Assembly (NCBI GenBank): GCA_021775385.1
Contig: JAJFHW010000245.1
Location: 1-10,616 of the forward strand
Source of the DNA: Hyphomicrobiales bacterium
Lineage (GTDB): Bacteria; Pseudomonadota; Alphaproteobacteria; Rhizobiales; HXMU1428-3
Direction: 5' to 3'
DNA length: 10,616 nt
This document shows positions 1-10,616 of the stretch, in pieces (positions within the stretch are counted from its first letter, which is position 1; each line of letters begins with the position of its first letter). Position numbers and translations under genes: made by a program. The notes beneath the pieces are model-generated. The model was not told the DNA's origin and did no database searches. It was given only the letters and a program-made list of their open reading frames with translations.

Positions 1-1342
1 AATACAAACTGTTTAAGTAAAGAGACGAACCATGCCATACATGGCGAACAGTTAGGGTCGCCCAGACAAAGCTAGTAATAAAAGCCAGTCCACCAACAAC
101 ACGCGGAATGAGAGGTGATTGCCAAAAGTCTAAATTTTTCCAAACCAAACGTATAAGCAAAAATATAAAAGAAGGGATTAGAAAACTTGGAAGTAGTAAA
201 TTAAAGAAGGTCTTCTCACCAACTTCCACCCCATATCTCAATGGTGAAAAGTGCACAAAGTTAGTAAATATAAAAGTTCCAATGATAAGCGGAAATGCAA
301 CTGGAAATATTCTGCTTTTCCAACCGTTAAAGAGAAAACGATAGAAAAAGATCACCGTTAGAAGAATTAACAATAAGCTGATTGAATGTGTATATGCTTC
401 AGCTGCTACTATAACCTGTAAATTTCCAAAATCATATGGACGTAGATGCCCCCCTACAAAAAGGTGCCTTATGGTGAGCAAGATAAAGCCACTCAGTAAA
501 ACCCAACTGGTCAGTTCTAGCACTGTTACATAGATAACAGGACGTCTTGTTCTTGCAATAAAGTGCACAATAGCTGCAATGATGCCAGGTACTAAATAAG
601 CAATCAGCAGCATATTAAAGATATGTCCAGTGCCAACAGGCTCGTTAGTAAAAAACGGGTTGAGCAATAAACCATGAGAAAGCAATACCATTGCAAGTGA
701 TAAGTAACCCAAAATCTGCGTGGCAGTCCTAAATATTACACTTGGCGATCTATCATCTAGTCGCATAAGAGCACCAGATAATACAAGAGCCGTAATTGTA
801 TGAGCAGCTTGCTCAGCAAGTTTGAAATCACCACTAAGCAAGTCACCATTATTCATGCCATGACGAATTTGCACGGTGAATAGGAGCGCGGTAAATAAAA
901 CAGCAACCCCTTCAAAAAAACGTTGTGGAGCATCTTTAACGGTTCTCCCCAGCAACAAACTAGCAATCCAGAAAGAGAGTGCGGGCAAACCATAAGCTGG
1001 TAGCAAAGAGTTGAAGATAATCGTGGTTGATGGGGTAAGGTTTAATGTTGGATGAAACAAGGTATAAGCGATAGCAACACCAGCGGCTACCATGGCGCTA
1101 AAGCGATAAACATGTAAGGGCCGAACAATACTAAGGCCAGCAAGAGCAACAGCTAAGAAAGAACTCAATACCACTAATATTGCACCATCAAATTTAAAAT
1201 ATACTGCCATGATGGCAAAAAGAGCTGATCCGCCAGCAATGAAAGTAAGGGGGAAAATTTCATTGAAATCTAAGCCCTTCAAGGAAGGGAGGCGTTTGAT
1301 AATTATTTCTGAGGATAAGCCAAGAGCTAGAGTGCCCAAAAG
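1..1342 (-). pseudogene. C-terminal part of DUF2339 membrane protein, downstream of in-frame TGA (runs off window)
   Basis: Reading the minus strand on past the TGA at 1343-1345 in the same frame gives 447 further codons without a stop, to the window edge. The translation begins LLGTLALGLSSE and ends VRHVWHGSSLYLNSLY. It is a chain of hydrophobic helices broken by short charged loops. The sequence RRPVIYVTVLELTSWVLLSG, the AEAYTHSISLLL helix, and a late VWATLTVRHVWHG segment resemble the C-terminal half of DUF2339 proteins, where an Arg-rich motif followed by HG is typical. It lacks its own start codon and ribosome site, so it is the rest of the gene that starts at 3013. With the N-terminal part and one residue at the TGA, the protein would exceed 1,000 residues, within the large size range of this family. 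It is either a gene broken by one nonsense codon or an artefact of one base error. Its function is unknown. Confidence 0.8.
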
Positions 1343-3013
1343 TCATACATATCCAATCCAATTCGGGCTTTGTATAAAATTTGAAACCCAGGTAACTGCA
1401 TAGGCTATTAGGGGAACAACAGATGCCGGTATTGCCCAGTTCAGTGCATGTGTCTCAAACTTCTGATTATTGGTTGCTTTAAGTACACCATAAACTCCAA
1501 TCATAATTGTAATGATAAAAAAGCCTAAACTTAACGAGGTGGCTTGTGTGTTTTGATTCCAATTATCCGTCGAACTTAATTCTGTATCCGCGATAGTGTA
1601 CATAAATTCCGTTACGGATATCCCTTGGAAAATGAAACCGATAAATGTAAACAAACCAAGTGCTGCACCTATTGCAAAAAGTAGAGAGAGCGCTGGTCTC
1701 AACCAGGCGCTAATCCAGAGTGATAAGACAACCACTGCAGTTGTTGCGATCGCTGTCGTTTGATAAGTTGTCGCATCAACATACAATAAAATAATTCCAG
1801 CAAGCCCTGTTATAAACGAAAACAATATTACGAAGAAGTCTTCATCTGGGTTATGATCAAGTGCAGATGATTTTATAGATGTTTCACTGTCTTCATCTGT
1901 GTCTTCCACCTCAGCTGTCTTTTGAAGTCTCCAAGTCAAGCCCAGGGTGCATAAACAGACAGCCAGTAAAGTTAAATAGGTCTTCAGAACAAATGATTGT
2001 AACAATTCATAATCACTATAGATGGTCAGAATAAGCGCCCAAAGTAGCGCCCCAACAGCAGCACATGCCATCAGCCAAACCCACGAACGAAAACGAGCGA
2101 TCGCCATTGCTGAATATGTGACAACCAATAAAAATGAAATAAGCGCCGTATAATTGGGAGAGGTAGTACTAACCAATGCGGGTGTTATATACGATCCAAG
2201 CAATCCTACAGCGGCAAGAGGCGAGCCATGAATAAGCGCCATCGTCAATGTTGATAGGGACAAAATTCCCATAATGGAAAAAGCAATTGCGGGGGAAATA
2301 AAACCAAATATGCCGTAGGCAATATAAGTTACGGCAAATAATATCATAGAGCCAACCGCCGTGAGGATCCCAGGCACATAAGCATTTTTGATATGAGAAA
2401 TATCTATTGCAAATGGAAGGCGGCGGAAATACTCACCAGCACCCATTAAAGCCAGACCAAACATAGCTGCCATTGCCAACCTGATTTTTGGCCCAATAAG
2501 CCCAACCTCAATAGAATATTTAATGAGAAATACAGCGCCAAATGCAAGGGCTATACCGCCGATCCAAACAGCCCACTTACCATCAGAAACTATGTTCAAT
2601 AATTTAGCTGAAATTTTCTCTAAAATAGGTGTAGGCGACTGAGCTTCTAATTTACTTGCCGCACGATCAGTCGAAAGAATGGTACTTTTGCGATGCGGGT
2701 TTTGTGAAGCTTCTTCAAGTTCAGACTGCTCCTTGAGTTTATCTGACTGAGGTTCGTCAACCTCCAAGGTAGCCCTCATCAGAGGCTTTTTTTCTTCAGT
2801 ACGAATAAGGGGGACAGAAGTGCTTTCGGCCAGAGCAGTCTCCAGCTCAGCATCATCTGCAGAGTCATCAAATTGAGGATTTTTTAGTTTTAAAAGGGTC
2901 GATTGAAGGTGCTCGATTTTATTTTTCTGAGCCTGGATTTGATTATGTAATTTCCAGCAAATAAAAAGAGCCAAAAATCCAGCTATATGCGCTAAGAATT
3001 CCAAATCAATCAT
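1343..3013 (-). CDS. DUF2339 multi-spanning membrane protein, N-terminal part ending at a premature TGA
   Basis: This 556-residue reading frame begins with one membrane helix (about residues 5-20). A short Gln/Lys-rich probable coiled coil (21-43) and a long acidic, Ser/Glu-rich linker (about 44-130) follow. The DUF2339 membrane domain then starts with KWAVWIGGIALAFGAVFLIK and VGLIGPKIRLAMAAMFGLAL, the characteristic Gly-rich first helices and GP-x-x-R-L loop. About ten helices follow, with an acidic loop (EDTDEDSE). DUF2339 proteins are inner-membrane proteins of unknown function. The frame ends after NWIGYV in a TGA, inside a helix, and the homologous sequence continues in frame. Start: ATG at 3011-3013 is preceded directly by AAAAGG with no spacer, too close to work well. 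The TTG at codon 4 lies about 9 bases after the same AAAAGG and is a plausible alternative start. The gene lies 433 bases downstream of acnB on the same strand. Confidence 0.8.
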   Translation of the reverse strand: MIDLEFLAHIAGFLALFICWKLHNQIQAQKNKIEHLQSTLLKLKNPQFDDSADDAELETALAESTSVPLIRTEEKKPLMRATLEVDEPQSDKLKEQSELEEASQNPHRKSTILSTDRAASKLEAQSPTPILEKISAKLLNIVSDGKWAVWIGGIALAFGAVFLIKYSIEVGLIGPKIRLAMAAMFGLALMGAGEYFRRLPFAIDISHIKNAYVPGILTAVGSMILFAVTYIAYGIFGFISPAIAFSIMGILSLSTLTMALIHGSPLAAVGLLGSYITPALVSTTSPNYTALISFLLVVTYSAMAIARFRSWVWLMACAAVGALLWALILTIYSDYELLQSFVLKTYLTLLAVCLCTLGLTWRLQKTAEVEDTDEDSETSIKSSALDHNPDEDFFVILFSFITGLAGIILLYVDATTYQTTAIATTAVVVLSLWISAWLRPALSLLFAIGAALGLFTFIGFIFQGISVTEFMYTIADTELSSTDNWNQNTQATSLSLGFFIITIMIGVYGVLKATNNQKFETHALNWAIPASVVPLIAYAVTWVSNFIQSPNWIGYV

Positions 3014-3446: not shown

Positions 3447-6233
3447 TTAAAAATGAACTGACTTTGGATCAATTGGTTTTTGTTGCGGAGGAGCGAACTT
3501 AGTAAGGTCGATGCCTTCCACAGCTGTTCTGTACTCTTCCATCGTAGGTGTTCTACCTAGGATAGCAGAAAGAACCACAACAGGTGTTGAGGCCAACAAA
3601 GACTCGCCCTTTTTCTCAGAACTGTCTTCTACAACACGCCCTTGGAACAAACGTGTAGATGTCGCTAACACGGTATCTCCTTTGGCAGCCTTTTCTTGGT
3701 TACCCATACAAAGGTTACAGCCTGGTCGCTCGAGATAGAGAATGTTTTCATATTCTGTACGTGCGTTGTTTTTGGGTGCAACATCATCAAATTCAAAACC
3801 AGAGTACTTCTGTAAAACAGCCCAGTCACCTTCATCTTTTAATTCGTCGATGATATTATACGTAGGTGCTGCAACGACCAAAGGTGCTTTAAATTCGACG
3901 CTGCCTGTTTGCTTTTCCAGGTTGCGAAGCATTTGTGCTACGATTTTCATGTCTCCTTTGTGAACCATACAGGAACCAACAAAACCGAGGTCGACTTTCT
4001 TTTCTGCTTTGTAGAATGAAATTGGTCTGATTGTATCATGTGTATAGCGCTTGGAGACATCAGCATTGTTCACATCTGGGTCGGCTATCATTGGCTCATC
4101 GATTAGATCGAGATCAACAACAACCTCAGCAAAATAATTAGCGTTGTCATCAGGAGTTAACGCTGGTTTTTCGCCAGATTTGATTTCAGCTATACGATTA
4201 TCGGCAATATTAATTAAGCCTTGAAGCGTTTGGGCTTCGTTATCCATGCCTTTATCGATCATAATTTGGATGCGATTTTTGGCAATTTCTAGAGAACCAA
4301 TGAGGGTATCATCTTCAGAAATACAGATGGATGCTTTGGCTTTCATTTCAGCTGTCCAGTCTGTGAATGTGAAAGCTTGGTCAGCAAGTAAAGTTCCGAT
4401 ATGAACCTCGATAATCCGTCCTTGGAAAACATTATCACCAAATTGCTTTAACATCTGCGATTGGGTCGCGTGCACAACATCACGAAAGTCCATGTGACTT
4501 TTCATGGTGCCTTTGAAAGTCACTTTAACAGATTCTGGTATCGGCATCGTGGCTTCGCCCGTAGCTAAAGCAAGGGCTACTGTTCCAGAGTCAGCGCCAA
4601 ATGCAACACCTTTTGACATGCGTGTATGACTATCACCGCCGATAATAATCGCCCAGTCATCTACCGTGATGTCATTCAAAACCTTATGAATAACATCTGT
4701 CATAGCATGATAAACATTTTTGGGGTCTCTAGCAGTAATCAGACCAAATTTATTCATAAAATTCATAAGCTTAGGGATGTTTTCTTGTGCTTTTATATCC
4801 CAAACAGATGCAGTATGGCAGCCTGATTGATAAGCACCATCAACAGTTGGTGATATAATTGTAGCTGCCATGGATTCAAGTTCTTGTGACGTCATCAAGC
4901 CGGTCGTATCCTGAGACCCGACAATGTTTACCTTCACGCGAACATCAGAGCCAGCATGCAAGACAGCTCCTTCAGTCACCCCAACTGAGTTAGCATTAAA
5001 GATTTTTTCCACTGCTGTAAGGCCTTGGCCTTCAAGAGAAATTTCTTTGGCAGGGGCGAAGACAGATTGCAATTCAATACCAAGTGTTGAGGCAGCAAAA
5101 CTCTGAAGCTTCTTGCCAAACACAATAGCATAGGAACCAGCAGCCTTAATGAACTCAACTTTTTGTGGCGTTAAAGAGGAGGAAATATCAACCAGCTCCT
5201 TGTCTCCATTGTAGAGCTTCTTTGTCTTGGTGTTAATGGTAAGAACTGTGCCGGTCTCTACTGAGTAGGTTTGCTCAAGAACCGGGTCATCATTTTCGTC
5301 CAAAATTGTATTGCCATCAGCATCTAGCTTTTTAACCCAGTTTTTCAGGTCAATACCAATGCCACCAGTAACACCTACCGTTGTTAAGAAAATAGGAGAA
5401 ATACCATTTGTTCCAGCAACAATAGGAGCAATATTAACAAAAGGAACATAAGGGCTTGCTTGCATTCCAGTCCACAAAGCAACATTGTTTACACCTGACA
5501 TCCGTGAAGAGCCAACGCCCATGGTCCCTTTTTCAGCGATTAACATCACTCTTGCATCAGGATGAAGTTTTTGAAGTTCTTGGATTTCAGCTTGTGCCGA
5601 TGGAGAGATCAGGCACTTTCCGTGTAGTTCACGGTCTGACCTAGAGTGAGCCTGGTTACCTGGTGAAAGCAAATCAGTAGAAATATCACCCTCAGCCGCG
5701 ATGTAGGTAACGACTTTAATCTCTTCATCAATCTCAGGAAGTTTTGTAAAAAACTCAGCTTTAGCATAACTTTCAAGTATGTTTTTAGCGATTTGGTTTT
5801 CGTCTTTATACGCTGTCTCTAATCGCTCCATATCTGCTTCATAGAGGAAGACTTGAGTTTTAAGGACTTCGGCAGCTTGTTTCGCAACATCTAAATCGTC
5901 ACCTAAGGCTACATCAAGGAGCACCTCCAAAGACGGCCCCCCTTTCATATGAGACAATAACTCAAAGGCGAAGGTTGGTGAGATTTCCTTAAGGACAGAG
6001 CTACCAAGAATAATCTCTTTTAAGAATTTTGCTTTTTCACCGGCAGCGCTAGTTGTACCAGGTAAGGTGTTGTAAATAAAAAACTTAAGAGAGTTTTCTC
6101 TATGCTCATTTTCGAGATCTTTAATTTGCGAGATGAGCTCACTTATAAGCGCACCATCGTCAATAGGCTTGGGGTTCAAACCTTGATTTTTTCTATTTTC
6201 AATCTCATTTAAGTAGTCTGTATACAAACTCAT
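3447..6233 (-). CDS. acnB: Aconitate hydratase B (aconitase / 2-methylisocitrate dehydratase)
   Basis: This is a cytosolic TCA-cycle enzyme that interconverts citrate and isocitrate through cis-aconitate; AcnB-type enzymes also hydrate 2-methylaconitate. The 928-residue protein has the AcnB order: an N-terminal HEAT-like helical domain (about 1-160, with GGPSLEVLLD), a swivelling domain, then the catalytic aconitase domains. The [4Fe-4S] ligands are visible: C755 in GSCMVHKGDM, and C839 and C842 in PGCNLCMGNQ. Active-site-type motifs such as IIIGGDSHTRMSKGVAFGADSG and STSTRLFQGR are also present. It is longer than E. coli AcnB (865 residues). Part of the difference lies between C755 and C839 (84 residues apart, against 59 between C710 and C769 in E. 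coli) and in a charged insert around ADGNTILDENDD. ATG 6231-6233 follows AGGA with a 5-base spacer, and the stop is TAA. AcnB clusters are sensitive to oxidants and NO, but nothing here shows NO-dependent control of the gene. Confidence 0.97.
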   Translation of the reverse strand: MSLYTDYLNEIENRKNQGLNPKPIDDGALISELISQIKDLENEHRENSLKFFIYNTLPGTTSAAGEKAKFLKEIILGSSVLKEISPTFAFELLSHMKGGPSLEVLLDVALGDDLDVAKQAAEVLKTQVFLYEADMERLETAYKDENQIAKNILESYAKAEFFTKLPEIDEEIKVVTYIAAEGDISTDLLSPGNQAHSRSDRELHGKCLISPSAQAEIQELQKLHPDARVMLIAEKGTMGVGSSRMSGVNNVALWTGMQASPYVPFVNIAPIVAGTNGISPIFLTTVGVTGGIGIDLKNWVKKLDADGNTILDENDDPVLEQTYSVETGTVLTINTKTKKLYNGDKELVDISSSLTPQKVEFIKAAGSYAIVFGKKLQSFAASTLGIELQSVFAPAKEISLEGQGLTAVEKIFNANSVGVTEGAVLHAGSDVRVKVNIVGSQDTTGLMTSQELESMAATIISPTVDGAYQSGCHTASVWDIKAQENIPKLMNFMNKFGLITARDPKNVYHAMTDVIHKVLNDITVDDWAIIIGGDSHTRMSKGVAFGADSGTVALALATGEATMPIPESVKVTFKGTMKSHMDFRDVVHATQSQMLKQFGDNVFQGRIIEVHIGTLLADQAFTFTDWTAEMKAKASICISEDDTLIGSLEIAKNRIQIMIDKGMDNEAQTLQGLINIADNRIAEIKSGEKPALTPDDNANYFAEVVVDLDLIDEPMIADPDVNNADVSKRYTHDTIRPISFYKAEKKVDLGFVGSCMVHKGDMKIVAQMLRNLEKQTGSVEFKAPLVVAAPTYNIIDELKDEGDWAVLQKYSGFEFDDVAPKNNARTEYENILYLERPGCNLCMGNQEKAAKGDTVLATSTRLFQGRVVEDSSEKKGESLLASTPVVVLSAILGRTPTMEEYRTAVEGIDLTKFAPPQQKPIDPKSVHF

Positions 6234-6919: not shown

Positions 6920-7207
6920 CTAAGTAGATTTTTTGTAAAATTCTAAATGGAATTTTACGGGGCCAATGACTTCAACATGGTGGGCTTCTTCAGGTTCAAT
7001 AATGACAAATTCACCTGCGCTAAGTGTGAGAATGTCTTCTGGCTTATTTTGCAAAATATAGTTGATAGCCCCTTCACTGATCACAGCTTTTGCCCAAACA
7101 TTAGGTTTCGTTTTATGCTCTTTCTGCAAAGCAAGAGGTAGAGTATCTTGGTCAAATTTAGGACTTTCAGAATATTTAGTCAGTTTCTCGGGTAAGCTAG
7201 TCAGCAT
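6920..7207 (-). CDS. DUF1971 small cupin, YeaR/TehB-N-terminal-like
   Basis: This 95-residue cytoplasmic protein matches the DUF1971 pattern: LPEKLTKYSESPKFDQDTLP (5-24), then KEHKTKPNVWAKAVISEGAINY with H31, W38 and G46, then a PEEAHHVEV segment (H76, H77) and a final KFHLEFYKK strand (H87). DUF1971 is a single-domain cupin fold, and the His cluster could bind a metal. The family includes E. coli YeaR, which is induced by nitrate/NO under NarL and NsrR, and the N-terminal domain of some tellurite-resistance TehB proteins. The biochemical role is unknown. ATG 7205-7207 is preceded by GGAG with about an 8-base spacer, and the stop is TAG. The gene is divergent from the norSY-type operon and shares an intergenic region carrying NsrR-like operators, which supports an NO-stress role by context. 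Confidence 0.88.
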   Translation of the reverse strand: MLTSLPEKLTKYSESPKFDQDTLPLALQKEHKTKPNVWAKAVISEGAINYILQNKPEDILTLSAGEFVIIEPEEAHHVEVIGPVKFHLEFYKKST

Positions 7208-7337: not shown

Positions 7338-7360
7338 AACATGCATGCAAAATACATCTT
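7338..7360. promoter_or_regulatory. NsrR-like operator 1 (11-1-11 dyad)
   Basis: Left half AACATGCATGC and right half AAATACATCTT flank a single A. This fits the proteobacterial NsrR pattern (AANATGCATTT, one base, AAATGCATNTT), with mismatches only at the two innermost left positions and a G-to-A at the degenerate purine position. NsrR is an iron-sulfur Rrf2-family repressor that releases DNA on contact with NO. The site lies 130 bases upstream of the DUF1971 start and about 75 bases upstream of the operon -35 element, so it could serve the divergent gene or be an auxiliary site. It was recognised by eye, not scored with a matrix. Confidence 0.5.
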
Positions 7361-7435: not shown

Positions 7436-7464
7436 TTGACATCTGGATCTAGTTTTCTTTAAAT
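7436..7464 (+). promoter_or_regulatory. Sigma-70-type promoter of the norSY-senC operon
   Basis: A consensus -35 TTGACA (7436-7441) is followed by a 17-base spacer and a -10 TTAAAT (7459-7464; four of six matches). Transcription would start near 7471, giving a leader of about 30 bases before the ATG at 7503. NsrR-like operator 2 overlaps the -10 and the start point, as expected for repression. Confidence 0.6.
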
Positions 7465-7484
7465 AAGCATTCTAAATGCATCTT
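7462..7484. promoter_or_regulatory. NsrR-like operator 2 over the operon -10 and start site
   Basis: Left half AATAAGCATTC and right half AAATGCATCTT flank a single T. The right half is a perfect NsrR half-site, and the left half deviates at two informative positions. It overlaps the -10 hexamer at 7459-7464 and the predicted transcription start, a position where a bound repressor would block the promoter. With operator 1 it makes two similar 23-bp dyads within 150 bp. The assignment to NsrR specifically is inference from motif and gene context. Confidence 0.5.
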
Positions 7485-7502
7485 TTAAAGCGAGAGGTTC
7501 TT

Positions 7503-8036
7503 ATGCAACATTATGTCCTGGCATTAAGCTTAAGTTTAATGTGCTTTGTTTCATTATTTTTCATTTCAGCCGTAATGGCATCTGGAAATAAAAAAACATT
7601 TTCTTCTCCAGAAGAAAAAAGAAAAAAATATATTTGGGCAATGTTCTTCATAGGGATCGTCGTCACATTTACCTCGCTTTGGCAGTATCCCCACACAATC
7701 TCCAAGTCCGTACATGCTCAGGCAATCAATGTAACCGGTGCTCAGTGGTACTGGGAGATCGATAAAGAAAAAGTCTTACTGAATAAGCCTGTTGTTTTCA
7801 ACGTCCATACCTCAGACGTTAATCACGGGATGGGCGTTTTAGATTCTGATGGCAAGCTTATATTTCAAACCCAGGCTATGCCAGGATATGTCAATAGAAT
7901 TGAGCACGTATTCACAAAACCTGGCGAGTATAAAGTTATTTGCTTGGAGTTTTGCGGTGTGTCTCATCATGACATGATCACAGAGTTTCAGGTCGTGGAA
8001 AAAGTTGTGGCGCAGAAGGAAAACAAAAATGATTAA
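7503..8036 (+). CDS. norS: CuA-binding subunit II of heme-copper NO reductase (NorS-type; COX2 family)
   Basis: This electron-entry subunit is membrane-anchored with a periplasmic cupredoxin domain. Counting from ATG 7503 it has 177 residues. Two membrane helices (about 4-24 and 43-61) are followed by the COX2 fold with its aromatic stretch QWYWE (81-85). The CuA ligands are complete: H108 in VNHGMG, then C147, E149, C151, H155 and M158 in CLEFCGVSHHDM. It should accept electrons from a c-type cytochrome or another periplasmic donor and pass them to the catalytic subunit. An ATG at 7476 would add nine residues but lies inside the operator and has no ribosome site. ATG 7503 has AGAGG five bases upstream and is preferred. 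The 3' end overlaps the next gene by 8 bases, so the two are translationally coupled. COX2 of an unusual cytochrome oxidase is the alternative; the catalytic subunit decides between them. Confidence 0.85.
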   Translation: MQHYVLALSLSLMCFVSLFFISAVMASGNKKTFSSPEEKRKKYIWAMFFIGIVVTFTSLWQYPHTISKSVHAQAINVTGAQWYWEIDKEKVLLNKPVVFNVHTSDVNHGMGVLDSDGKLIFQTQAMPGYVNRIEHVFTKPGEYKVICLEFCGVSHHDMITEFQVVEKVVAQKENKND

Positions 8037-9468
8037 GCCATCTCATGAACCCCACTCTAATTTAATTAAATTCACCATGCTTCTAGCTGGTGCTGTCCTC
8101 TTATTGATGATGATTATTGGCTTGTTGATGCGAGCAGCACAAGGCGATTTAATCGAGATCGATCCAGCTATTTTTTATCAACTTATGACAGCTCATGGAG
8201 CAGGCATGGTTGGAGCAGCATCTTTAACAGGTGCAGCGATCATGTGGTACTTCGTTAGCCGATATGTTTTTCTTCTTAAAGAAGTCTTTGTTGTTTTTCT
8301 GACATTGTTTTTATTCGGTGTATTATTCATTCTAGGGAGTATCTCTTTAGGGCAGTTTGGGGCAGGTTGGACTTTCCTTTTCCCCTTGCCAGCCATTTCA
8401 GGGGGAGCATGGGAAACAGGGGCAGCCGCAGCTTTTATCATTGGGCTAATACTAATCGGTGTCGGGTTTCTTCTAATGAATTTAGAAGTCGGCCGTAAAG
8501 TAATCTCTGCCTTTGATGGGATTGGTGGAGCTCTGGCCTGGCCTGTAATTTCAGGGAAGGTAACACCAGATGATGCCCCGCCACCAGCAATTGTCGCAAG
8601 CATGGCTACCATTATTTTTAATACAATAGGTATTGTGGTTGGCGCTGCCGTTTTAGTCTCCAGCCTTATTAATCTATATGTTCCAGCCTTTGAAGTTGAC
8701 GCGCTTCTTGCTAAAAATATGATTTACTTTTTTGGCCATGTTTTCATTAATGCAACCATCTATATGGCGGTTGTCGCGGTATATGAAATCATTCCGGAAT
8801 ATACAGGAAAACCTTGGAAAACATCGCGCATCTTTGCAATTGCCTGGTCTGCTATTTTATTATTTGTCATGGCCGTTTACCCCCATCACCTGTTGCAAGA
8901 TACTGTGATGCCAGCCTGGGCTTTAATCATGGGGCAGATAGTCTCTTATCTATCAGGCATACCATTACTAACAGTCACAGCCTTTTCTCTTTGCGTATAT
9001 TTAAGAGGCTCAAATATTAAATGGGATCTAGCATCCGCTTTATTAGTGCTTGGTGTTGCTGGGTGGTCAGTTGGTGTTGTGCCCGCAATAATAGATGGCA
9101 TGATCTCAGTAAATAAAATTATGCACAATACCCAGTGGGTGCCGGGGCATTTTCATATTTACTTATTGCTCGGTGAAGTGGCCATGAGTTTTGGCTTTAT
9201 GGCTTACCTGATTAAAGAAGCAAAATCATCGGAATTCCAAATGATTGATAAAACCGCATTTGGAGTATATCTCGCAGGTGGCATCGGCTTTACTCTTATG
9301 TTCCTGGTATCTGGTGCGATGTCTGTTCCAAGAAGGTGGGCTGTCCATGCTGAAGAATGGCTTTTGCAAGATCGTATCGCAACAGCTTTTGCACTGTTAG
9401 TTATCGTAGGAGCTTTAATCTTCGTGGTGAGATATATAATCGGCATTTCAACATATAGAAGGACTTAA
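8029..9468 (+). CDS. norY: Heme-copper oxidase superfamily subunit I lacking the active-site Tyr: probable sNOR catalytic subunit NorY
   Basis: This integral membrane catalytic subunit has 479 residues and about 12 helices. All six metal-binding histidines are visible: H56 (TAHGAGM) for low-spin heme, H237 (FFGHVFINATIY) plus H286/H287 (YPHHLL) for CuB, and H374/H376 (VPGHFHIYLL) for the two hemes. In O2-reducing A- and B-type oxidases the residue four after the first CuB His is the crosslinked Tyr (H-P-E-V-Y). Here it is N241 (H-V-F-I-N). The Glu of cNOR/qNOR at that site is also absent. Loss of this Tyr, with the norS-norY-senC-orf order, points to sNOR, which would reduce NO to N2O. A Glu (E383) follows the HFH helix motif where oxidases usually have Ala. 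ATG 8029 with AAGGA 8 bases upstream is chosen; TTG 8005 has no such site. Activity is inferred from residues and context. Confidence 0.85.
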   Translation: MIKPSHEPHSNLIKFTMLLAGAVLLLMMIIGLLMRAAQGDLIEIDPAIFYQLMTAHGAGMVGAASLTGAAIMWYFVSRYVFLLKEVFVVFLTLFLFGVLFILGSISLGQFGAGWTFLFPLPAISGGAWETGAAAAFIIGLILIGVGFLLMNLEVGRKVISAFDGIGGALAWPVISGKVTPDDAPPPAIVASMATIIFNTIGIVVGAAVLVSSLINLYVPAFEVDALLAKNMIYFFGHVFINATIYMAVVAVYEIIPEYTGKPWKTSRIFAIAWSAILLFVMAVYPHHLLQDTVMPAWALIMGQIVSYLSGIPLLTVTAFSLCVYLRGSNIKWDLASALLVLGVAGWSVGVVPAIIDGMISVNKIMHNTQWVPGHFHIYLLLGEVAMSFGFMAYLIKEAKSSEFQMIDKTAFGVYLAGGIGFTLMFLVSGAMSVPRRWAVHAEEWLLQDRIATAFALLVIVGALIFVVRYIIGISTYRRT

Positions 9469-9474
9469 ATTCGA

Positions 9475-10110
9475 ATGAGTGCCTTCAAAGTAAATATTGT
9501 CATCATTCTTATCGGTTCGCTCGTCTTATGGTTCACAACAGATGGGTTGCAAGCCCTGACCAGTGAAGGTGCAAGACGACTACAGGTTACAAAGCTGAGA
9601 CCAATGATGCCAAATATTACTTTGGAGACAATGTCAGGTGCTTATACAAGACTACAAAGTGAAAACGAACATATAACTATTGTCGAGTTTATATACACAA
9701 CATGCCCGTTTATCTGCCAGGCCGGCGGTGACCATCTAGCTCGCTTACAGCATGAAATCAAAAAGAAAAAACTACAGGATAAAATTCGGATTTTTTCAAT
9801 TAGCTTCGATCCTCTAAAAGATAATATAGAAGAACTATCTTATTACGCTAAGCGCCATAATGCAGATGGGATTGTATGGACGATTGCAAGACCAAAGGTT
9901 GAGGATTTACCAGACTTACTAAAGGCATTTGGCATTATCGTAATACCGGATGAAGATGGAGGCTATGTCCATAATTCTGCGATGCATATCATTGATCAAC
10001 GGGGGAACTTAATATCCATTCTCGATAGTAATGATGTTCAAGGAGCGTTGAAAACCATTGAGCGAATGCTCCAAGGTATGCGAATGCTCCAAGTTGAGCG
10101 GACACGCTAA
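9475..10110 (+). CDS. senC: SCO1/SenC family copper chaperone
   Basis: This periplasmic, membrane-anchored thioredoxin-fold protein delivers copper to, or keeps reduced, the CuA site of COX2-type subunits. In 211 residues it has one N-terminal membrane helix (about 7-21) and then a SCO domain with the copper-binding CPFIC motif (C77, C81) and the distal His H166 in YVHNSAMHIID. The complete Cys-Cys-His set predicts a functional chaperone, whose natural client here is the NorS-type CuA subunit two genes upstream. Its start is 6 bases after the norY stop, with AAGGA about 11 bases upstream. The C-terminus holds an 18-bp tandem duplication (10062-10097) that repeats RMLQ; this tail lies after the conserved domain. 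The TAA stop shares its last A with the ATG of the next gene. Confidence 0.93.
   Translation: MSAFKVNIVIILIGSLVLWFTTDGLQALTSEGARRLQVTKLRPMMPNITLETMSGAYTRLQSENEHITIVEFIYTTCPFICQAGGDHLARLQHEIKKKKLQDKIRIFSISFDPLKDNIEELSYYAKRHNADGIVWTIARPKVEDLPDLLKAFGIIVIPDEDGGYVHNSAMHIIDQRGNLISILDSNDVQGALKTIERMLQGMRMLQVERTR
10062..10097 (+). repeat. 18-bp tandem duplication at the 3' end of senC
   Basis: GCGAATGCTCCAAGGTAT (10062-10079) is followed at once by GCGAATGCTCCAAGTTGA (10080-10097). The first 14 bases are identical. In protein this duplicates RMLQ in an amphipathic C-terminal tail. It keeps frame and looks like slippage. Confidence 0.75.
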
Positions 10111-10616
10111 TGATAGATGGTAAAATAAAAATATTAATCTCATCTCTTATATTTACATTTTGCATTCTCTCAAGAGGAGCATTAGAGAAGCTCCCAATTA
10201 CCCATATATTAATTCAATTGCCCTTGTTGATTTGTGTCGGCTATCTTTTGGTAGAAGAAAAATTTTTGAGAATTGGTGAGTGGAACAAGATTAGTGAGTG
10301 GAATAAAGGAGGGTGCGCGTCTCTTTTAATCGCAATTTTTACCATCGCTTATTGGATGTTGCCCAGATCAATAGATGCCGCAATATCTTCAGTCACTATG
10401 GAATTGCTCAAATTTCTCACGGTGCCATTACTAATAGGTGTTTCCTTGAAGTTAGGATGGGGAAGGGCACATCCAATCTTAAAAGGGTTTCTAAAAGCTC
10501 AAGCCATCTCCATGTTAGGAGTGGCAGCCTTTATATATATCCACGCGCCAATTCGAATTTGTAACTCCTATTTAGAAAATGCTCAGCAAGATCTGGGGTA
10601 TGGGTTTTTATATACA
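10110..10616 (+). CDS. Multi-spanning membrane protein of the norSY-senC cluster (orf1/orfZ position), 3' truncated by window
   Basis: The frame opens at an ATG overlapping the senC stop (TAATG) and stays open for 169 codons to the window edge, so translation is probably coupled to senC. The product starts MIDGKIKILISSLIF and has about five predicted membrane helices (roughly 7-22, 30-48, 69-84, 98-116 and 130-145). A segment RICNSYLENAQQDLGYG then lies after the last helix. I recognise no domain of known function. The position is that of orf1/orfZ in norSY-senC-orf1 clusters, so a role in sNOR assembly or as an accessory subunit is a reasonable inference, not shown. An 18-bp tandem repeat inside it (10272-10307) encodes the doubled motif EWNK. 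Trp codons are all TGG. Confidence 0.75.
   Translation, partial: MIDGKIKILISSLIFTFCILSRGALEKLPITHILIQLPLLICVGYLLVEEKFLRIGEWNKISEWNKGGCASLLIAIFTIAYWMLPRSIDAAISSVTMELLKFLTVPLLIGVSLKLGWGRAHPILKGFLKAQAISMLGVAAFIYIHAPIRICNSYLENAQQDLGYGFLYT
10272..10307 (+). repeat. 18-bp tandem duplication in the terminal membrane-protein gene
   Basis: ATTGGTGAGTGGAACAAG (10272-10289) is followed directly by ATTAGTGAGTGGAATAAA (10290-10307), with three differences. It encodes IGEWNK then ISEWNK in a polar loop between predicted helices 2 and 3, and keeps the frame. Confidence 0.7.

Follow-up and report, generated by a model that had tools for sequence, protein, structure and literature searches.

A probable sNOR-type nitric oxide reductase operon with NsrR-type promoter palindromes in a Hyphomicrobiales bacterium

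Introduction

Does an operon with the gene names of a cytochrome oxidase reduce oxygen or nitric oxide (NO)? This question is raised by a contig of a Hyphomicrobiales bacterium (JAJFHW010000245.1). The window analysed here is the whole contig (G000:C163, 10,616 bases), from an assembly of 2.88 Mb that is 79% complete and 3% contaminated. Four plus-strand genes encoding COX2-like, COX1-like, SCO-type and membrane proteins occupy positions 7503-10616, following a 295-base intergenic region. A sequence-only reading had proposed a nitric oxide reductase (NOR) of the sNOR type in these genes. Whether sNOR enzymes reduce NO or O2 is openly disputed, as part of the text of PMC6967387 documents, and the naming of their genes as cytochrome oxidase by automatic pipelines hides a capacity for nitrous oxide (N2O) production. 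This habit of naming, also part of the earlier reading, is confirmed by source names among the matches listed and by the KEGG assignment coxA reported in a section of PMC11388526. The comparisons presented below indicate that the operon probably encodes a heme-copper NOR of the sNOR family.

Active site, subunit architecture and phylogeny

Subunit I carries the histidines H56, H237, H286, H287, H374 and H376 as ligands of two hemes and CuB; they are invariant in the alignment of its 60-member clade. Residue 241, four positions past H237, is asparagine in all 60 members and also in 240 of 240 homologues among the matches listed (the best 120 of 2203 from one protein search and the best 120 of 2425 from another; the remaining matches need not all be sNOR). 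One homologue, P0054, was scored by eye, the search pattern having caught an earlier GH first. The six intact histidines and the asparagine in place of the crosslinked tyrosine thus stand as the sequence-only reading had described them. In the reference sequences shown, the crosslink column holds Tyr in ba3 and A-type oxidases, Gly in C-type oxidases, Glu in cNOR and qNOR, and Gln in eNOR-like proteins. Over all 117 aligned sequences it reads N 61, Y 24, G 21, E 6, Q 3, A 1 and F 1. The 61st asparagine belongs to the bNOR-like L115 of Ammoniphilus, which groups with Bacillota ba3 oxidases (support 100), so that the asparagine appears to have arisen at least twice. Glutamine, the mark of eNOR according to a portion of PMC8756737, occupies this position in further subunits I from a Terasakiella genome (L109), a Paramagnetospirillum genome (L110) and locus L078; the genomes of L109 and L110 carry sNOR besides the Gln-type protein.

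A tyrosine from another helix could in principle supply the crosslink. The C-type position is ruled out, as Val280 sits six residues before H286, where C-type references have Tyr. Two family-specific tyrosines, Tyr245 (60/60) and Tyr284 (59/60), are close to CuB ligands in sequence and might, judged from the alignment, stand in for the lost residue; the sequence-only reading therefore holds for the C-type position and leaves these two as candidates. The E383 that it had singled out near CuB is a glutamate in the window and in only 38 of the 60 clade members.

The CuA ligands of subunit II (H108, C147, E149, C151, H155 and M158, counted from the start at 7503) are all intact, as claimed before, and do not vary among the 19 aligned subunits II, two of which are B-type references. 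Hydropathy and the structural model gave 12 helices in subunit I and two hydrophobic segments in subunit II by our own counts. The type II CuA-NOR is described with the same helix numbers and the same gene order in an excerpt of PMC3475470, where the bNOR of Bacillus azotoformans (type I qCuANOR) has a 13-helix subunit I and a one-helix subunit II.

A tree built from 117 heme-copper subunits places the window protein inside the 60-member clade (bootstrap 100) together with proteins of Ruegeria (Silicibacter) pomeroyi, C. oryziterrae and A. resinae. This clade stands apart from the A, B, C, cNOR, qNOR, bNOR-like and eNOR-like sequences, and the B-type (ba3) references form a clade of their own (bootstrap 98). 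The separation from O2-reducing clades agrees with the sequence-only reading. R. pomeroyi subunit I, 64.6% identical to the window protein, belongs to an organism listed as sNOR bearer with an active-site N in Table A4 of PMC8756737; the part of this source that was available also lists sNOR without a proton channel. The nearest named record among the matches listed is a metagenome-assembled genome (MAG), Methyloligella sp. DHS20C07, which is 97% identical and matches the same-genus genome G003 by coordinates; Methyloligella belongs to the Hyphomicrobiales. The earlier comparison with clusters of ammonia oxidizers was therefore apt for the sNOR type, while the closest named relative is this Methyloligella MAG and no ammonia oxidizer.

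The known alternatives within the superfamily do not describe the protein. Asn241 replaces the Tyr of A- and B-type O2 reductases, the Glu of cNOR and qNOR, which also separate in the tree, and the Gln of eNOR; the C-type (cbb3) Tyr, six before the HH pair in the next helix, is Val280; the helix numbers of bNOR and its place beside the Bacillota ba3 oxidases differ. An additional, uncharacterized family of NORs (the proposed nNOR is an example) would leave room for the same observations, as the tree took in no Nitrosomonas or Nitrosococcus NorY, nNOR or gNOR sequence. This assignment is very improbable: a published sNOR bearer, R. pomeroyi, lies inside the clade, and the asparagine and the operon order agree with sNOR descriptions. 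Four features, namely active-site signature, subunit architecture, gene order and tree, agree in supporting the predicted membership of the operon in sNOR, the type named by the earlier reading.

Operon arrangement and neighbouring genes

The genes are tightly joined (Table 1), with an 8-base overlap between subunits II and I, a 6-base gap before the SCO gene and a 1-base overlap between the SCO gene and gene 4. Order and junctions had been recognized in the sequence-only reading; its account needs correction for gene 4, which is incomplete because the contig ends inside it. The open reading frame of subunit II extends over 7476-8036 with an alternative in-frame ATG at 7476; the ATG at 7503 is consistent with the relatives, in which an MQ start is common. 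The NCBIfam oxidase models listed for the operon proteins all stay below their cut-offs (e.g. CtaD, 55.8 versus 670.75).

Table 1. Positions of the operon genes, key codons, divergent gene and promoter palindromes in the window
Feature	Position	Strand	Evidence or remark
norS-like subunit II (CuA)	7503..8036	+	Pfam COX2 28.7 bits, cut-off 22; CuA ligands; two hydrophobic segments
norY-like subunit I, 479 aa	8029..9468	+	Pfam COX1 164.5 bits, above its cut-off; tree; active-site columns; model with pLDDT (predicted local distance difference test) 88.8
Subunit I key codons	H237 = 8737-8739; N241 = 8749-8751	+	
SCO/SenC-type copper chaperone, CPFIC motif	9475..10110	+	Pfam SCO1-SenC 44.1 bits, cut-off 22.8
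orf1/orfZ-like multi-spanning membrane protein, truncated by contig end	10110..10616	+	
DUF1971 protein, divergent to operon	6920..7207	-	PF09313 58.4 bits, cut-off 23.1
NsrR-type palindrome	7462..7484	.	19/22 positions, 3 mismatches; 41 bases before the 7503 start; overlaps upstream ATG
Second NsrR-type palindrome	7338..7360	.	19/22 positions, 3 mismatches; on the DUF1971 side

The arrangement was followed in 59 loci, comprising 54 of 61 homologue loci (six partial and one identical were left out), four loci of the same genus and R. pomeroyi. Near relatives are over-represented among them and the counts are not independent. Subunit II precedes subunit I in all 58 loci with enough sequence, and 56 of 59 loci have a SCO gene after subunit I; the fourth gene is likewise present in 56 of 59. 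That one and the same operon recurs at 59 loci rules out a chance arrangement. Five of eight genomes of the genus harbor sNOR; the copy in G001 is only 62% identical.

Gene 4 of the window is 88% identical to a full-length 197-aa homologue in the related genome locus L003, for which a structure was predicted with pLDDT 89.9. Gene 4 gave no Pfam match at 0.001, and the fourth operon protein no match to a known fold. An alignment of the L003 protein (L003:7064-7657) with its relatives contains invariant P147, R149, C151, Y154 and Q159 near the end. In L003 a formate/nitrite channel gene comes next (NirC model 292.3, cut-off 293; PF01226 216.9 bits). Such a gene follows the operon in 25 of 52 loci, in two of them weakly (20 and 24 bits), and the window contig ends before its expected start. 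The R. pomeroyi record itself annotates Rrf2 regulator, SCO and channel genes at the operon.

DUF1971, the product of the divergent gene, is the family of E. coli YeaR, and E. coli yeaR is annotated as DUF1971. In L003:1-4163 and L193 (G006:C35), a DUF2189-DUF1971-ccoNOP cluster with NsrR-type boxes takes the place that DUF1971 and the next gene, acnB, occupy in the window; the difference implies that the cbb3 part is missing or has moved in the window. The aconitase B adjoining the DUF1971-sNOR region (3447-6233, minus strand) has 928 aa versus 852 positions in the NCBIfam model. Farther away, the gene of a DUF2339 membrane protein (2-3013, minus strand) contains an in-frame stop at codon 557 and is either a pseudogene or an assembly error. 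An alphaproteobacterial MAG encodes a bacterial-type globin close to its sNOR operon (L007:3322-3837, minus strand; PF01152 26.6 bits, cut-off 21); globins, too, are a group connected with NO.

Promoter palindromes and Rrf2-family regulators

NsrR sites were sought with the pattern AAGATGYATTTNAAATRCATCTT, which we take to be the E. coli form. Only the two palindromes of Table 1 reach at least 17 of 22 positions in the window; both are close to the E. coli form with an 11-1-11 architecture and are putative binding sites. Of 5000 shuffles of the intergenic region, a single one attained the best score, and the second-best was attained by none. With as many as three mismatches allowed, four places exist in the whole assembly: two at this promoter, each with three mismatches, and the others near a molybdopterin-binding-domain gene and near an aldehyde dehydrogenase gene. 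G003 has two such sites, one at its sNOR and the other near a molybdopterin-binding-domain gene, and G002 three, two at its sNOR. Both sites of G006 are on the contig with the DUF2189-DUF1971-cbb3 genes, which adjoin sNOR in G003. A reversed control pattern found no site in any of these four genomes at up to three mismatches. An NsrR-type box near a molybdopterin-binding-domain (MoaB-like) gene was seen in two genus genomes (L190:9404-9426 and L191:6187-6209). Upstream of related operons, 33 of 54 regions contain a box at p < 0.05 (300 shuffles each), and the summed best score of the 54 regions is 811, compared with a shuffle mean of 655 and a maximum of 675.

Of 53 related operons, 36 have a gene of the Rrf2 family no more than 4.5 kb away; in 26 cases this gene is divergent and at most 2.2 kb upstream. 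The window has no Rrf2 gene; its assembly contains three, one IscR-like and two NsrR/RirA-like, the latter scoring below cut-off. Of the first 27 Rrf2 proteins to be clustered, 25 have three cysteines in a pattern like that of E. coli NsrR, and the best pairs share 40-43% identity with it. The proximity of nsrR and sNOR was already visible in Nitrosococcus oceani, where Noc2967 is listed as NsrR near SenC-NorY-NorS (Noc2969-2971) in an excerpt of PMC3772326. A passage of PMC1274295 reports NsrR in only one of the alphaproteobacteria of 2005.

The control sequences beside the operon suggest that NO itself switches it on. Control by iron would give another picture: the enzyme would still be sNOR, and the palindromes would be read by an iron- or Fe-S-responsive RirA-like Rrf2 regulator. 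The NCBIfam RirA model outscores NsrR for three of five regulators (L005, L123 and L124), and many alphaproteobacterial boxes read like the variant AATAGGTATT...; L117 and L006 score higher as NsrR, and the boxes of the window's genus resemble the E. coli ytfE site, printed as AAGATGCATTTAAAATGCATCTT in a portion of PMC5320621. In the same portion, the NsrR site is given as an inverted repeat of 11-1-11 form, and yeaR, which is a DUF1971 gene, is counted among the genes under NsrR control. Iron control instead of NO control is thus considered unlikely.

Oxidases and nitrite reductase in carrier genomes

The COX1-family matches over cut-off in the eight genus genomes amount to 24, assigned by closest reference to 8 A-type, 11 C-type and 5 sNOR proteins. 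As all of them are aa3, cbb3 or sNOR, sNOR is the only recognized NOR of the heme-copper superfamily, to which the survey was confined (non-heme-copper NO reductases were not searched for). The same search recovers cNOR and qNOR in other genomes. Seven genus genomes contain both aa3 and cbb3 oxidases; the incomplete assembly of the window has cbb3 and sNOR only. NnrS is present in six of the eight.

NirK was found over cut-off in none of the eight genus genomes. A 205-aa NirK fragment in the window's assembly (257.5 bits, cut-off 296.3) is located on contig L169 (G000:C55, 3005 bases), whose tetranucleotide correlation with the window is 0.70. The contig may be foreign, a contaminant, because 40 pieces from seven of the assembly's own contigs all reach at least 0.77. 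Among 45 sNOR genomes, nine have NirK over cut-off (four of them Leisingera-type relatives), compared with 9 of 142 genomes drawn from the class (Fisher p = 0.016). This enrichment points to some link of sNOR to denitrification. The other 36 genomes, many of which are incomplete MAGs, are without NirK over cut-off, which argues for NO defence more than for NirK-type denitrification.

Proposed function

NO reduction is proposed because the crosslink tyrosine is lost, the characterized bNOR has the same asparagine and the control is of the NO type; bNOR is called biochemically characterized in a section of PMC11388526. The chief competitor is a high-affinity terminal O2 reductase that merely resembles a NOR and is useful when low O2 and NO coincide. 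PMC6967387 argues in the part available that sNOR reduces O2, from a 2.7- to 10.8-fold rise of the N. europaea sNOR genes under O2 limitation and from the grouping of NorY with B-type oxidases. Other points also weigh against NO reduction under NO control. According to an excerpt of PMC11388526, no sNOR has been assayed so far. Three of the eight genus genomes lack sNOR, and no significant box appears in 21 of 54 upstream regions (300 shuffles each). An Rrf2 gene is absent within 4.5 kb of 17 of 53 operons, including those of L003 and L065, which are the nearest relatives. NCBIfam does not separate NsrR from RirA, all five regulators scoring below both cut-offs. Tyr252 and Thr317 of subunit I, presumably two K-path positions of B-type oxidases, are kept as in ba3 references. 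O2 reduction would in addition need a replacement of the lost tyrosine, for which Tyr245 or Tyr284 might serve. Against it stand the loss of the crosslink Tyr in every member examined, the NO-type palindromes and Rrf2 genes at the operons, and the aa3 and cbb3 enzymes that the genus already has. The argument for an O2 reductase consequently fits less well with the NsrR-type boxes and the other O2 reductases of the genus, and is judged improbable. Taken together, promoter boxes, Rrf2 genes, channel and other oxidases favour an NO-induced NO reductase.

In the proposed mechanism, an NO-sensing Rrf2-family repressor, encoded elsewhere in the genome, would leave the palindromes once NO appears. 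A cytochrome c or similar donor would reduce CuA, and electrons would pass to the low-spin heme and on to the heme-CuB site, where two NO would be reduced to N2O and water. The NirC-like channel encoded after the operon in L003 would move nitrite. Since a recognized NirK is missing from most of the searchable carriers, the enzyme probably serves less in denitrification than in protection from NO that is external or has leaked. A wider interpretation is offered tentatively: alphaproteobacterial sNOR could possibly be a membrane-bound NO shield of aerobes that mostly do not make NO from nitrite. This NO-induced module might consist of an Rrf2 repressor, a CuA-fed NOR, its own copper chaperone, a needed, uncharacterized membrane protein and a nitrite channel, and in some genomes it might act in concert with one particular cbb3 oxidase and with a YeaR-like protein. 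If this is true, many genes now named cytochrome oxidase are sources of N2O. Through the recurrence of the NsrR-type operator, the Rrf2 gene and the nitrite channel, the question of NO or O2 becomes open to direct tests in culturable strains, Ruegeria pomeroyi DSS-3 for example.

Comparison with known systems

The operon is an additional member of the known, biochemically untested sNOR family, to which a regulatory context is added here. With the norSY-senC-orf1 systems of Nitrosomonas and Nitrosococcus and the type II CuA-NOR of B. azotoformans and Geobacillus it shares the asparagine, the two-helix CuA subunit, the 12-helix subunit I and the clustered SenC and membrane-protein genes; a gene listed as NsrR also lies nearby in N. 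oceani (PMC3772326, as far as excerpted). It differs from them in the alphaproteobacterial host, the NsrR-type palindromes and the divergent DUF1971 gene, and its related genomes differ in the NirC-like channel gene that comes next. bNOR has the asparagine and CuA in common with the window, but differs in helix numbers (PMC3475470, in the portion cited above), and the bNOR-like L115 groups with Bacillota ba3 oxidases. B-type (ba3) oxygen reductases resemble the window enzyme in fold, CuA subunit and the positions of Tyr252 and Thr317, whereas they keep the crosslink Tyr and form a separate clade (bootstrap 98). cNOR and qNOR share the heme-copper superfamily and the proposed reaction; they have Glu in place of Asn and cytochrome c or quinol input in place of CuA, and are distant in the tree.

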